Made by a program: the position numbers and the translations under genes
In this document: positions 58,060 through 62,052 of the stretch, in pieces
Layout of the letters: each line of letters begins with the position of its first letter
Position numbering within the stretch: the first letter of the stretch is position 1
The notes under the pieces: generated by a model
What the model saw: the letters and a program-made list of their open reading frames with translations, nothing else
What the model was told of the DNA's origin: nothing
Databases searched by the model: none
NCBI GenBank assembly: GCA_017514975.1
Contig: JAFWIF010000030.1
Coordinates: forward strand, 1 to 64,000
DNA: 64,000 bases
Source of the DNA: Candidatus Saccharimonadota bacterium
GTDB lineage: Bacteria > Patescibacteriota > Saccharimonadia > Saccharimonadales > Saccharimonadaceae
Reading direction: 5' to 3'

Positions 58060-59179
58060 TGAGATTTGGAAAATACGGCCACGTGCGAAGGTTGAGTTTT
58101 GGACGGATAGGAAATACTTTAGGAATGCGCGAAAGATAACAATTGAAAATGGCATGAAATTGAAGATTAAGAAGGTGGCAGCAGGGAAGTTAAGGAGATA
58201 TACAAACTTTAAATTGATGGATTATTTGGAGCATTTTGATGTGGTGCTTTTGAATGTTTGGGATGGATTTAGATTGATTTTTGGCTTTTTGCAAAGCTTG
58301 GTGAGATTATTATTCTTGAAACCGAATGTAATATTTTTAAAGGGAGGCTATACGTGTTTGCCGGTGGGGTTGGCGGCAAGGCTTTTACGGATACCGTATG
58401 TGATTCACGACAGTGACGCGGTTCCTGGGCTGACGAATCGAGTGCTGGCGGGATGCGCGAGGAGAATCGCGACAGGGATGCCGCTTGAATATTACAATTA
58501 TCCGACAGAGAGAGCGGTATGGACGGGGATTCCTATCGGGGAGGAATTTCGAGCAGTGTCGGAGAGTCGCCAGAAGGCGTTAAAGAAGGAATTAGGGTTC
58601 CGAGAGGAGAAGTTGCTGGTGGTGGTAACGGGTGGAAGCCAGGGGGCAGAGCATATTAACTTAGCGATGAGGGAAATTTTGCCTGCACTACTAGAAAAAG
58701 CGAGTGTCTTGCTGGTAGCGGGGAGAGCGAGATATGACGAGATGTTGGACTTAAAGAAATATGAGACATGGGAAAATGGGGAGTTGAAATCGAATTTTCG
58801 GATGATTGAGTTTTCGAGCGAAATGTATAAGTTGTTTGGCGCGGCGGACGTGGTGGTGAGTCGAGCAGGGGCATCAACAATGACAGAGCTGGCGAAGATG
58901 GGGAAGGCGGTAGTGATGGTGCCGTATGAAAAATTACCTGGATTTCACCAAGTTAAGAATGCAGAGGCGTATGAGGCGGGAGGGGCAGCGATAGTGGTGT
59001 TTGACGATAAGATGAATAAAGAGCCAAAGTTATTGCTTGAAGCGCTCGAGAAGGTGCTTGGCAAGAGCAGAGAAAAAGTCGAGAAAAGGGAGGAGCTAGG
59101 GAAGAATTTGCGAAAGTTTGCAAAGGCGAATGCGGCGGAAGAGTTGGCGAAGATCGTGGTAGAGGTTGGGAGTAGATAG
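57995..59179 (+). CDS. murG: UDP-GlcNAc:lipid I GlcNAc transferase
   Basis: 394 residues. N-terminal VVGGGSGGHVTPVVAV is the glycine-rich loop. YVIHDSDAVPGLTNRVLAG, VVTGGSQGAEHINLAMREILP and SRAGASTMTELAKMGKAVVMVPYE are characteristic. It makes lipid II. It overlaps ftsW by 65 nt, an unusually long overlap, which implies tight coupling. It is the last recognised gene of the cluster in this window. Confidence 0.95.
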   Translation: MKILVVGGGSGGHVTPVVAVVSEIWKIRPRAKVEFWTDRKYFRNARKITIENGMKLKIKKVAAGKLRRYTNFKLMDYLEHFDVVLLNVWDGFRLIFGFLQSLVRLLFLKPNVIFLKGGYTCLPVGLAARLLRIPYVIHDSDAVPGLTNRVLAGCARRIATGMPLEYYNYPTERAVWTGIPIGEEFRAVSESRQKALKKELGFREEKLLVVVTGGSQGAEHINLAMREILPALLEKASVLLVAGRARYDEMLDLKKYETWENGELKSNFRMIEFSSEMYKLFGAADVVVSRAGASTMTELAKMGKAVVMVPYEKLPGFHQVKNAEAYEAGGAAIVVFDDKMNKEPKLLLEALEKVLGKSREKVEKREELGKNLRKFAKANAAEELAKIVVEVGSR

Positions 59180-60300
59180 GGACGGCGGTTAAGCGGTTGG
59201 GCTTAGCGGATGGAAAATTTCCCTGTGAGTTCCCTTTATGTTCGGTTTTTGTTCTTTTGGAATTTTTTGGTAGCGGGGGGATTTTTTGAGGCAGAGACGT
59301 TTGGCGGGGGCGGTTGGTGGAGAAATTGAGATTTTGACGGGTAGGGCGGAAACTGGGAAAAATTGGCGATTTTTTGGATTTTTGATGGCGGGAATTTGGC
59401 TAAATATGGTCTAATATATGATTTATAGGGGTAGATTTTGGTGACATTTTTTAGCGTGTCAAGGGCGTGTACTTCTGGGTGCTTCCCCGGAGTCCCCCGA
59501 AAAATAATCAATCGCGCATGAGGGGTGTTTATGGGGTTTTATGGAGTGGGTTTTACGGTGTTGCTGAGTGGTTTGATGAGCGAGTTTAAGAGAGAAATGG
59601 GCGTAACATGTTGGGGCGTGGATATGTTTTAGGTTTGTAGACGAATATGTTGAATCGCGGTGAGGCTACTTGGTTAATGTCGTAAAATATACATTGTGCG
59701 ACATTAAATATTTATGGAAAAGTTGATATTATACTCATGACTTGGCCGCGGTTCTGATAGCCTGCTGGTGAATTTTTGTCGTTTTTGTGCCCTATTTTGC
59801 GTTTTAAGGCCCTTTTGGGCGCAAAGACGGTATTTTATATGGTTATGGCTAATTTTGGCGATTTTAAGCGATTTTGCGCGTTTTTTGCATATTTGTATAT
59901 TAACGGTGCTTTAGGGATAAAAATGGGTAGATCTTGAAAAATAACAGGGGTCGAACAGGGGTGAATCATTGCTGCGCGCCAGGGGAGCAACAGGGAAATC
60001 GTAACATCAATAGAGAAAAAAGGGCGAAAAAGGAGAAGGGGAGTTATGTGTGTTTTTTTTGTTGGCTTTTTGTCTAATTCCTTGCCCGTCGTGCGTGAAA
60101 TAAGATATACTTAAACCATTTGCTTTGTGGTGGACTGATCGATCGCATCGTCTCTGATAGCACTGCTCAAATCCTTGTCGCGTAATTCCCTGCCAGTCGC
60201 TAGGCTGCGCCTATTGTCGTAAGCGCCAATGGCCAAACGAGCCGACCGAGCTATATACGCAAAGCCGTCGGGTAAGGTCAAAGAAACTTTATAGTCGAAA
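59180..60300. other. Gene-poor region after murG
   Basis: No gene I can support. The base composition changes from G-rich coding sequence to T-rich stretches. A 9-bp inverted repeat (TTAATGTCG at 59674-59682, CGACATTAA at 59699-59707) has the look of an operator or a small hairpin. AACAGGGGT is repeated at about 59944 and 59953. From about 60120 the composition shifts again to more C-rich sequence, marking the start of the accessory block. Confidence 0.5.
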
Positions 60301-60317
60301 GGAGTTAATTATATGAG

Positions 60318-60400
60318 GCGGTAAAATAACGGCTACTCCCCTGCACTTTTTAACATCGCCTTATTTCAGCGCTCGCGCAGGCTTTCGCCGTTATTTACCT
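60318..60400 (+). repeat. Structured element, copy 1 (most diverged)
   Basis: The outer stem is AAATAACGGC (60324-60333) with GCCGTTATTT (60387-60396), ten perfect pairs. An inner CGC...GCG hairpin encloses CTTATTTCA. An AGGAG-type site and an ATG (60313) lie just before it, as in the other copies, but the frame stops after three codons, which shows that the conserved feature here is the structure and not the peptide. Confidence 0.6.
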
Positions 60401-60457
60401 ATACTATACCATACAACAGCAAAGCATTGCAACTTGAGGGTTAGAGGAGCTAATATC

Positions 60458-60545
60458 ATGACAACAAAAATAGCGGCTTTACCCTCGCATTTTCTGACGG
60501 CGTTTTATTTCAACGCTCACGCTCGGTCACACCGCTACCTGTAAT
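60458..60545 (+). repeat. Structured element, copy 2
   Basis: AGAGGAGC then ATG at 60458 opens a 28-codon frame. The outer stem is TAGCGG (60471-60476) with CCGCTA (60532-60537). An inner stem GCGTT/AACGC encloses TTATTTC. The core (60483-60527) is nearly identical to copy 3. It ends about 40 nt before a Com-like frame at 60582. Confidence 0.65.
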
Positions 60546-60581
60546 TATATCGCAGCTTGAACACAAAAGGAAGAATAATTT

Positions 60582-60918
60582 ATGCCAATTAAACTTACCG
60601 GCGCGCATATTAGGCGATACGAAAAACACCTATCAGAATAACGTAAAGACGTACGCCAAAAAACAGCAGCCTCTAACTAACCCGATAAGCCAATTTCTAC
60701 CAACATCTATTTCAAAAGAGATTGCCGATGAGTTTTCAGAACACAAAGGCGGCGACACTCTAACACTCAGGGTCAACTCTGGCACGAGAGCCTTATTTGT
60801 CGGACCACATTCTAACAGCAACTTCAACGTACTTGAGGTGTTGTTTCCCGAAGATGCTACAATACGAATCATAGAAAACGACGGCAAAAATATAATAGGA
60901 GAGCTTTATTATGACTAA
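60582..60918 (+). pseudogene. Com-like zinc-ribbon gene with extended C-terminus, frameshifted
   Basis: It begins MPIKLT like the intact copy at 61647, but a 13-base deletion removes CPECG and shifts the frame, giving a stop after 19 codons. In the restored frame the reading continues as RILGDTKNT and then about 95 residues (including ADEFSEHKGGDTLTLRV and VLFPEDATIRI) to a stop at 60916-60918. That stop overlaps the next ATG. So the original gene joined a conserved N-terminal zinc-ribbon to a different C-terminal domain. Confidence 0.6.
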
Positions 60919-61114
60919 GAGAATAAACGGAGTCGAGGTGTCCGATGAAGTATTCGAGCAACAGGCGAATAGGTTTTGCGACGGCGGAAGAATATTCGAC
61001 AGCGAAGAGGAGCTTAGAGAGCATAAGGCACGACTTAAAGAGAAGCGTCGCAAAGCATGGGGAAAAGAGTTTTTCGAGTTGACATACGGCGAAGGGAGCT
61101 ACGATGCCAATTAA
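60911..61114 (+). CDS. Unrecognised 67-residue protein
   Basis: A charged, mostly helical protein (RINGVEVSDEVFEQQANRF, EEELREHKARLKEKRRKAWG). The start overlaps the stop of the upstream pseudogene and the end (DAN, stop) overlaps the start of another MPIK frame. This overlap pattern repeats in the next unit. No family recognised. Confidence 0.5.
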   Translation: MTKRINGVEVSDEVFEQQANRFCDGGRIFDSEEELREHKARLKEKRRKAWGKEFFELTYGEGSYDAN

Positions 61115-61118
61115 ATAA
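61104..61118 (+). pseudogene. Truncated Com-like frame (MPIK only)
   Basis: ATGCCAATTAAA overlaps the end of the 67-residue gene exactly as the intact copy overlaps the 78-residue gene, but a TAA follows after four codons. It is a remnant of the conserved module. Confidence 0.5.
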
Positions 61119-61160
61119 ATTTACGCCCTAACTGAAAAATGGGCTAGAGGGGCTAGTTTC

Positions 61161-61262
61161 ATGATTAATCAAAAAAGCAGCCTCTCCTCGCATTTTCTGA
61201 CGGCGTTTTATTTCAACGCTCACGCTCGGCTAAGCTGCTACCTACCATTATACCGCAACTTG
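61161..61262 (+). repeat. Structured element, copy 3
   Basis: Preceded by AGAGGGGC and an ATG at 61161. The outer stem is AGCAGC (61176-61181) with GCTGCT (61234-61239). Compared with copy 2, a G-C pair has become A-T on both sides while the stem is kept, a compensatory change. The frame from 61161 runs 44 codons and ends in AN-stop overlapping the MPIK frame at 61285. Confidence 0.65.
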
Positions 61263-61359
61263 AGCACAAAAGGAAGTATGGTTTATGCCAATTAAACTTA
61301 TCTGCCCCGAATGTGGGCGCATACTAGGCGACACGTTATAGTCCCTTAACAATTTCAAT
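61255..61359 (-). ncRNA. Candidate tracrRNA from a degenerate CRISPR repeat
   Basis: On the minus strand, TTGATT (61388-61393), 16 bp, TATTAT (61366-61371) form a promoter. The transcript would begin near 61359 with an anti-repeat: GTTAAGGGACTATAAC pairs with the first 16 bases of the array repeat with one mismatch. Downstream comes a short GCCC/GGGC hairpin, then GTTTA/TAAAC, then CTTCCTTTT as a weak end. This matches the layout of a type II tracrRNA. The alternative is that it is only a solitary degenerate repeat. Confidence 0.4.
61285..61341 (+). pseudogene. Com-like frame cut short by a CRISPR-like repeat
   Basis: MPIKLICPECGRILGDTL then stop. It matches the intact copy at 61647 through CPECGRILGDT. 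The stop codon TTA-TAG lies inside the degenerate CRISPR repeat that begins at 61335, so the second half of the zinc ribbon is replaced. Confidence 0.55.
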
Positions 61360-61370
61360 TAGTGTATAAT
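61335..61370 (+). repeat. Solitary degenerate CRISPR repeat
   Basis: 36 bases long, matching the array repeat at 31 of 36 positions by eye, with the differences in the middle. Both ends (GTTATAGTCCC and TAGTGTATAAT) are conserved. It lies 494 bp before the array. Its TATAAT can serve as a -10 box for the 61421 gene on the plus strand and its other strand may give the tracrRNA. Confidence 0.7.
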
Positions 61371-61420
61371 ACGTCTGACGAAAAAATAATCAAAGCGGCC
61401 GTAAAGAAAGGAGGCGAAAA

Positions 61421-61657: not shown

Positions 61658-61757
61658 ACTTACCTGCCCCGAATGTGGGCGCATACTAGGCGATACGAAG
61701 AACACCGTAGATTGTTACATAAACTGTCGGGGCTGTAGACCGTCCACATACACATGA
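61647..61757 (+). CDS. Com-like small zinc-ribbon protein, intact copy
   Basis: 36 residues. CPEC ... CRGC with a further Cys (about residue 23) gives a compact zinc ribbon. The spacing and the start (MPIKLTCPECGRIL) resemble phage Mu Com, a small RNA-binding translational activator, and other tiny zinc ribbons. It is too short for most gene callers. Four copies of its start are found within 1.1 kb, each at the end of a unit. Confidence 0.5.
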   Translation: MPIKLTCPECGRILGDTKNTVDCYINCRGCRPSTYT

Positions 61758-61817: not shown

Positions 61818-61871
61818 ATGACAAATCCGGCAATAGTTGTCATTCGACAACGAAGATACCGCGGGTTATAG
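61818..61871 (+). CDS. Possible 17-codon frame ending in the first CRISPR repeat
   Basis: AAGGAG lies 7 nt before an ATG at 61818, and the frame encodes a short basic peptide (MTNPAIVVIRQRRYRGL). Its stop TAG lies in the first repeat (TTA-TAG at 61866-61871). The array therefore begins inside what was probably a longer frame. Confidence 0.3.
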   Translation: MTNPAIVVIRQRRYRGL

Positions 61872-62032
61872 TCCCCTAACATTTTAGAATAGTGTATAAT
61901 GGGAATCCCAAAGGGGATTAACGGGGAAGTGTTATAGTCCCCTAACATTTTAGAATAGTGTATAATAAGGAAAATTTCCGTTTTACATAATTGCAAGTTA
62001 TAGTCCCCTAACATTTTAGAATAGTGTATAAT
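61865..62032 (+). CRISPR. Three-repeat, two-spacer type II-C CRISPR array
   Basis: Three identical 36-base repeats at 61865-61900, 61931-61966 and 61997-62032, separated by two 30-base spacers. The repeat begins GTTATAGTCCCC and ends GTGTATAAT. That 3' TATAAT can be a -10 box, as in Neisseria-type II-C arrays, where each crRNA is transcribed from its own repeat; the direction would be plus, toward cas2. Spacer 1 contains AATCCC/GGGATT and spacer 2 GGAAAATTTCC. The 36/30 geometry and II-C cas genes agree. Confidence 0.92.
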
Positions 62033-62052
62033 ATTTAATCAACTTAACTTAT

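Follow-up and report, generated by a model that had tools for sequence, protein, structure and literature searches.

The window analysed here, a stretch of 64,000 nucleotides, is part of a 128-kb contig from an 886-kb genome, which its size and its many small relatives mark as of the CPR type. The gene murG ends at 59179, and from about 60.1 kb the GC skew falls from about +0.45 to about 0, to go back to about +0.2 past about 66.8 kb. The stretch between these points (about 60.1-66.8 kb) is of foreign composition and holds three structured elements, several short ORFs and a type II CRISPR-Cas9 locus (Table 1). Cas1 was matched in none of 150 relatives, and among 380 genomes of the phylum it had just three matches, all distant (36-39%); together with the shift in composition this suggests that the segment carrying the elements and CRISPR-Cas9 was most likely acquired. 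The region 3' of murG is variable among the six relatives compared, which left no clean empty site to be defined. Type II-C1 systems have been described in Saccharibacteria (PMC10746230), so the CRISPR locus as such is not new.

Table 1. Features of the foreign segment and of the structured elements, in positions of the window.
Feature	Coordinates	Strand	Remarks
SD-like AAAGGAG and ATG (60313), upstream of copy 1	60298..60315	+	ORF is ATG AGG CGG TAA, stop after three codons
Copy 1, structured RNA (predicted)	60323..60396	-	Outer stem up to 10 bp, loop GAAAUAA, A-rich bulge
Promoter-like site, copy 1	60403..60432	-	TTGCAA, 18 nt, TATAGT, with TG ahead of the -10; consensus match only
SD-like AGAGGAG and ATG (60458), upstream of copy 2	60443..60460	+	28-codon ORF, no coding signature
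Copy 2, structured RNA (predicted)	60467..60539	-	
-10-like TATAAT, copy 2	60544..60549	-	Without a good -35
Degenerate copy, MPIKLT... Zn-ribbon gene start	60583..60630	+	Adjoins copy 2
SD-like AGAGGGG and ATG (61161), upstream of copy 3	61146..61163	+	44-codon ORF
Copy 3, structured RNA (predicted)	61171..61242	-	Ends in TTTTTT
-10-like TATAAT, copy 3	61247..61252	-	Without a good -35
Truncated copy, MPIKLTCPECGR gene start	61285..61335	+	Ends at the degenerate CRISPR repeat
Solitary degenerate CRISPR repeat	61335..61371	+	86% identical
CRISPR array	61865..62033	+	Three 36-nt repeats, two 30-nt spacers
cas2 and cas1 (type II), within the foreign segment	62097..63321	-	cas9 continues outside the window

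Several smaller features accompany this arrangement. An anti-repeat scan gave a site upstream of cas9 (L004:3726, minus strand) that is likely the anti-repeat of the tracrRNA. The cas9 gene itself (L004:325-3568, contig positions 63324-66567) is divided between two overlapping frames in its HNH region, owing either to a frameshift or to an error of assembly. The stretch 60636-60915 resembles the C-terminal portion of an ADP-ribosyltransferase (E 0.0005-0.001 to PF03496, under the curated cut-off) and has no in-frame start codon; it is probably a decayed gene. In the non-coding stretch ahead of the foreign segment an inverted repeat (TTAATGTCG and CGACATTAA, 59674-59707, with 16 nt between the arms) is possibly a recombination site.

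An earlier note on this DNA had described three copies of an element with outer stems that differ in sequence and always pair. On the plus strand these stems do pair, as AAATAACGGC (60324-60333) with GCCGTTATTT (60387-60396) in copy 1, TAGCGG (60471-60476) with CCGCTA (60532-60537) in copy 2 and AGCAGC (61176-61181) with GCTGCT (61234-61239) in copy 3, and the reported change of a G-C to an A-T pair between copies 2 and 3 is found at columns 7/65 of the alignment (A2, in which the three copies are aligned as the minus strand). Copies 2 and 3 do share a core of about 45 bases, but copy 1 does not: it is only about two-thirds identical, with 22 differences from copy 2 in 70 positions. Copies 2 and 3 form one duplicated block of 120 nt (87% identity) whose homology extends well past the element and which we read as a recent duplication. 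With copies 2 and 3 derived from one duplication and copy 1 diverged, the three copies amount to effectively two independent sequences.

The strand had been misread as plus, since every fold test and the positions of the G-U pairs identify the minus strand as the structured one. The minus-strand folds of copies 1, 2 and 3 reach -24.8, -25.8 and -25.4 kcal/mol with z scores of -2.6, -3.3 and -2.7, against -0.9, -1.1 and -0.8 on the plus strand, and the consensus fold of the alignment has a z score of -5.9 on the minus strand and -3.5 on the plus strand. G-U pairs of the minus strand (columns 9/63, 20/51 and 28/36) become A-C mismatches when read on the plus strand. The fold consists of an outer stem (columns 3-9/63-69), a second stem (columns 15-21/50-56) and a hairpin (columns 24-28/36-40) with the loop GAAAUAA, together with an A-rich bulge on the 3' side. 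Four of its 19 pairs (5/67, 7/65, 21/50 and 27/37) have changed on both sides with pairing kept, and two have changed on one side. In the second stem of copies 2 and 3 two pairs are replaced by neighbouring G-A and A-G, possibly forming a tandem sheared G-A pair.

The consensus energy (-22.1 kcal/mol) was reached by none of 400 column shuffles and by none of 3000 neutral simulations (best -20.5), in which random pieces of the window diverged to an equal extent with no selection; these chance figures favour the structure, which was itself drawn from the sequences tested. Compensatory pairs number four against 1.3 expected by shuffling, and four double changes arose in 6 of 500 shuffles of the 3' partners. 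A stricter test of where substitutions are placed gave P values of 0.002 to 0.05 in the comparisons with copy 1. The proposal of the earlier note that structure is under selection is thus supported by the z score of the consensus and the excess of compensatory pairs, and covariation among the three copies lies above background, with the structure taken from these same copies and effectively two independent sequences behind it. We regard the case for a structure as good, and short of proof by covariation.

Conservation is strongest in the unpaired apical bases, that is the loop GAAAUAA (seven of seven columns invariant), the GA bulge (two of two) and most of the A-rich 3' bulge (six of nine). 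The outer stem, second stem and hairpin stem are invariant in 8/14, 8/14 and 6/10 columns, and the basal internal loop in 1/11. Fixed loops on drifting stems suggest that the apical part may be recognised by a partner, an argument whose basis is effectively two sequences.

Each element is flanked by signals that would suit a transcript from the minus strand. In every copy a -10-like box is found 6 nt ahead of the outer stem (first bases 60408, 60549 and 61252), and the minus strand of the 2 kb segment has exact TATAAT at just four places; only copy 1 also has a match to a -35. On the other side, the outer stem is followed in every copy by a U-rich run (TTATTTTA, TATTTTTG and CTTTTTTG). A terminator scan did not flag the element stems, because their loops exceed the limit of the scan.

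The ribosome-binding-site-like sequence and ATG that had been reported ahead of each copy are present on the plus strand, but because the fold belongs to the minus strand they do not lead into the folded RNA. Substitutions fall on codon positions 1/2/3 in counts of 7/7/8 (copies 1 and 2), 11/5/9 (copies 1 and 3) and 4/4/2 (copies 2 and 3), with no excess at third positions in any of the three comparisons, and the plus-strand ORFs have no match in Pfam or PHROGs. The reading as a protein-coding repeat (HFLTAFYFNAHAR) was rejected on these counts and because copy 1 has no start. The plus-strand SD sequences of copies 2 and 3 (60441-60453 and 61144-61156) sit in the loop of a small potential hairpin, not clear in copy 1, whose stems differ yet pair (TTAG-AGGAG-CTAA and CTAG-AGGGG-CTAG).

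Judged by sequence and predicted folding, the elements are a real and unclassified candidate for a structured RNA, present in three copies and probably transcribed. The reading that we prefer, with a confidence somewhat above even, is that they are three paralogous minus-strand genes for an independent non-coding RNA of ~72 nt that would be recognised by its loops and would most likely act as a regulator within the foreign segment, a reading drawn from no more than three copies, of which two are recent duplicates, with no relative in the genomes searched. Transcription would begin just ahead of the outer stem, which would clamp the 5' and 3' ends of the RNA, and the U run 3' of this stem would terminate the transcript. 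The second stem and the hairpin would display the fixed unpaired bases (the 5' GA bulge, the loop GAAAUAA and the 3' bulge, which contains GUYARAAA) while the paired bases drift through compensated changes. A protein or RNA partner may then recognise the RNA by these loops, and the genes that it regulates would most likely be those of the surrounding CRISPR-Cas9 segment.

A minus-strand RNA could also work as a cis-antisense RNA that blocks translation of a small, SD-preceded ORF on the plus strand, as in type I toxin-antitoxin pairs, and in each copy the U-run that marks the 3' end reaches +9 to +11 relative to the ATG on the plus strand. We nevertheless consider this unlikely, as the ORFs are unconserved (3, 28 and 44 codons), carry no coding signature and match no known family in the databases named above, and a perfect cis-antisense pair does not need conserved loops. 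Fixed loops on drifting stems are our reason for favouring an RNA recognised by its loops over cis-antisense action and over a DNA site.

It appears rather more doubtful that the elements act as plus-strand RNA within a polycistronic message, influencing translation beside the SD and ATG that precede every copy. A promoter-like site on that strand (TTGCCC-18-TATACT, 60082-60111) and the still low z score of the plus-strand consensus are consistent with such a role, but the plus strand fares worse in every fold test, the G-U pairs belong to the minus strand, and the ATG of copy 1 runs into a stop after three codons.

A DNA element, either a recombination site in the form of a single-stranded hairpin or a mobile site bounding gene cassettes, would suit copies that have short ORFs on either side and repeated gene starts nearby, but we hold it to be quite improbable. 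Integron attC sites carry an R' box (GTTRRRY) and an R'' box (RYYYAAC) at the stem ends; on inspection the stem ends of the three copies fit neither, and the cassette boundaries suggested by the earlier note were not borne out. Conservation moreover lies in the loops rather than at the stem ends, the homology of copies 2 and 3 runs well beyond the element, and the genome holds no more copies. We give just as little credence to neutral duplication of a functionless sequence with a chance structure; the elements come from a single genome in three copies, and the placement of substitutions reaches only the P values given above in a structure chosen from the same data, but neither the column shuffles nor the neutral simulations attained the consensus energy. 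It is also very improbable that the elements form a new RNA family that travels with the CRISPR-Cas9 locus and acts on or guards it as a type II counterpart of the RNA regulators linked to type I CRISPR, with the solitary repeat as part of the circuit.

The earlier note had held that a lack of further copies with covariation, or covariation no better than background, would refute its reading; on the first point, which thus counts against it, a covariance model (R1) searched against CPR genomes returned no further copies, and on the second the covariation of the three copies was above background. Among 200 relatives it found just the three copies and one match (G072, E 0.019, 22.7 bits) that is without the hairpin and was rejected as chance, and it found none beyond the three copies in 380 genomes of the phylum, elsewhere in the source genome or in three distant type II loci (G778, G725 and G718). 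In 393 genomes of the order a loose pattern of the unpaired bases recovered these three copies alone. Stricter filters, which may lose weak matches, were applied in the searches of many genomes, and the collections may leave out records very near the source genome. No similar DNA was found in phage or plasmid records, and Rfam gave no family at the gathering threshold and none even with E up to 10. Degenerate short-pattern matches in the genome and viral contig collections were rejected for absence of the flanking fold, and those in genome contigs numbered 39 against an estimated 60 or so expected by chance. Neighbouring proteins used as bait in viral contigs, phages and relatives yielded no convincing relatives.

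Of known RNAs, the small RNAs of bacteria and phages filed in Rfam under 'Gene; sRNA' resemble the elements in being short, with a promoter-like box of their own, a closing stem and a U-run, but the elements match none of these families. A conserved secondary structure without a coding signature, as expected of a small non-coding RNA, is what we find, from effectively two independent sequences. The tracrRNA of a Cas9 locus is likewise small and structured. The anti-repeat scan finds only the array, the solitary repeat and the site upstream of cas9, and no anti-repeat in the elements; duplex energies between the elements and the CRISPR repeat or tracrRNA were not clearly beyond those of shuffles. 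RNA anti-CRISPRs (Racr) mimic the CRISPR repeat in sequence (PMC10651486), and a small RNA near CRISPR with a solitary repeat at 61335 is similar in setting; the elements are unlike the CRISPR repeat, with a best local alignment score of 9 against up to 15 in shuffles of the region.

The RNA toxin CreT of CreTA has an SD, an AUG, two consecutive minor codons for Arg or Ile and a stable stem-loop, and CreTA modules as described belong to type I systems (PMC8501985). Copy 1 on the plus strand likewise has an SD, AUG, two arginine codons (AGG CGG, used at 8.0 and 6.1 per thousand codons in the window), a stop and then a stem, and there is an ectopic CRISPR repeat at a distance of 1 kb. The present locus, however, is type II, the fold of the elements prefers the opposite strand, and the AUG AGG CGG UAA mini-ORF occurs in copy 1 only, not in copies 2 and 3. 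A CreTA module was also rejected, as the search gave no guide to match the element promoters; the flanks of the solitary repeat match the MPIK gene copy (29/30 at 61667).

With three paralogues, compensated stems and fixed loops in a foreign CRISPR-Cas9 segment, the elements offer a concrete RNA candidate. The non-coding RNAs of CPR-type bacteria seem to be barely catalogued, and a literature search gave nothing relevant. Should homologues appear in metagenomes, their function could be read from their neighbours.

Around the solitary repeat (61285-61371) the truncated MPIKLTCPECGR gene start stops exactly at the first base of the repeat, and the 30 nt upstream of the repeat are identical to 61667-61696 at all but one position. 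A crRNA from this repeat would target the neighbouring gene copy, though the homology extends over 51 nt and resembles a duplication. The gene start ATGCCAATTAAA is found four times (60583, 61102, 61285 and 61647) and in at least two of these places overlaps the stop of the ORF before it (..DAN*), which gives the impression of a single gene start put to use in several settings.
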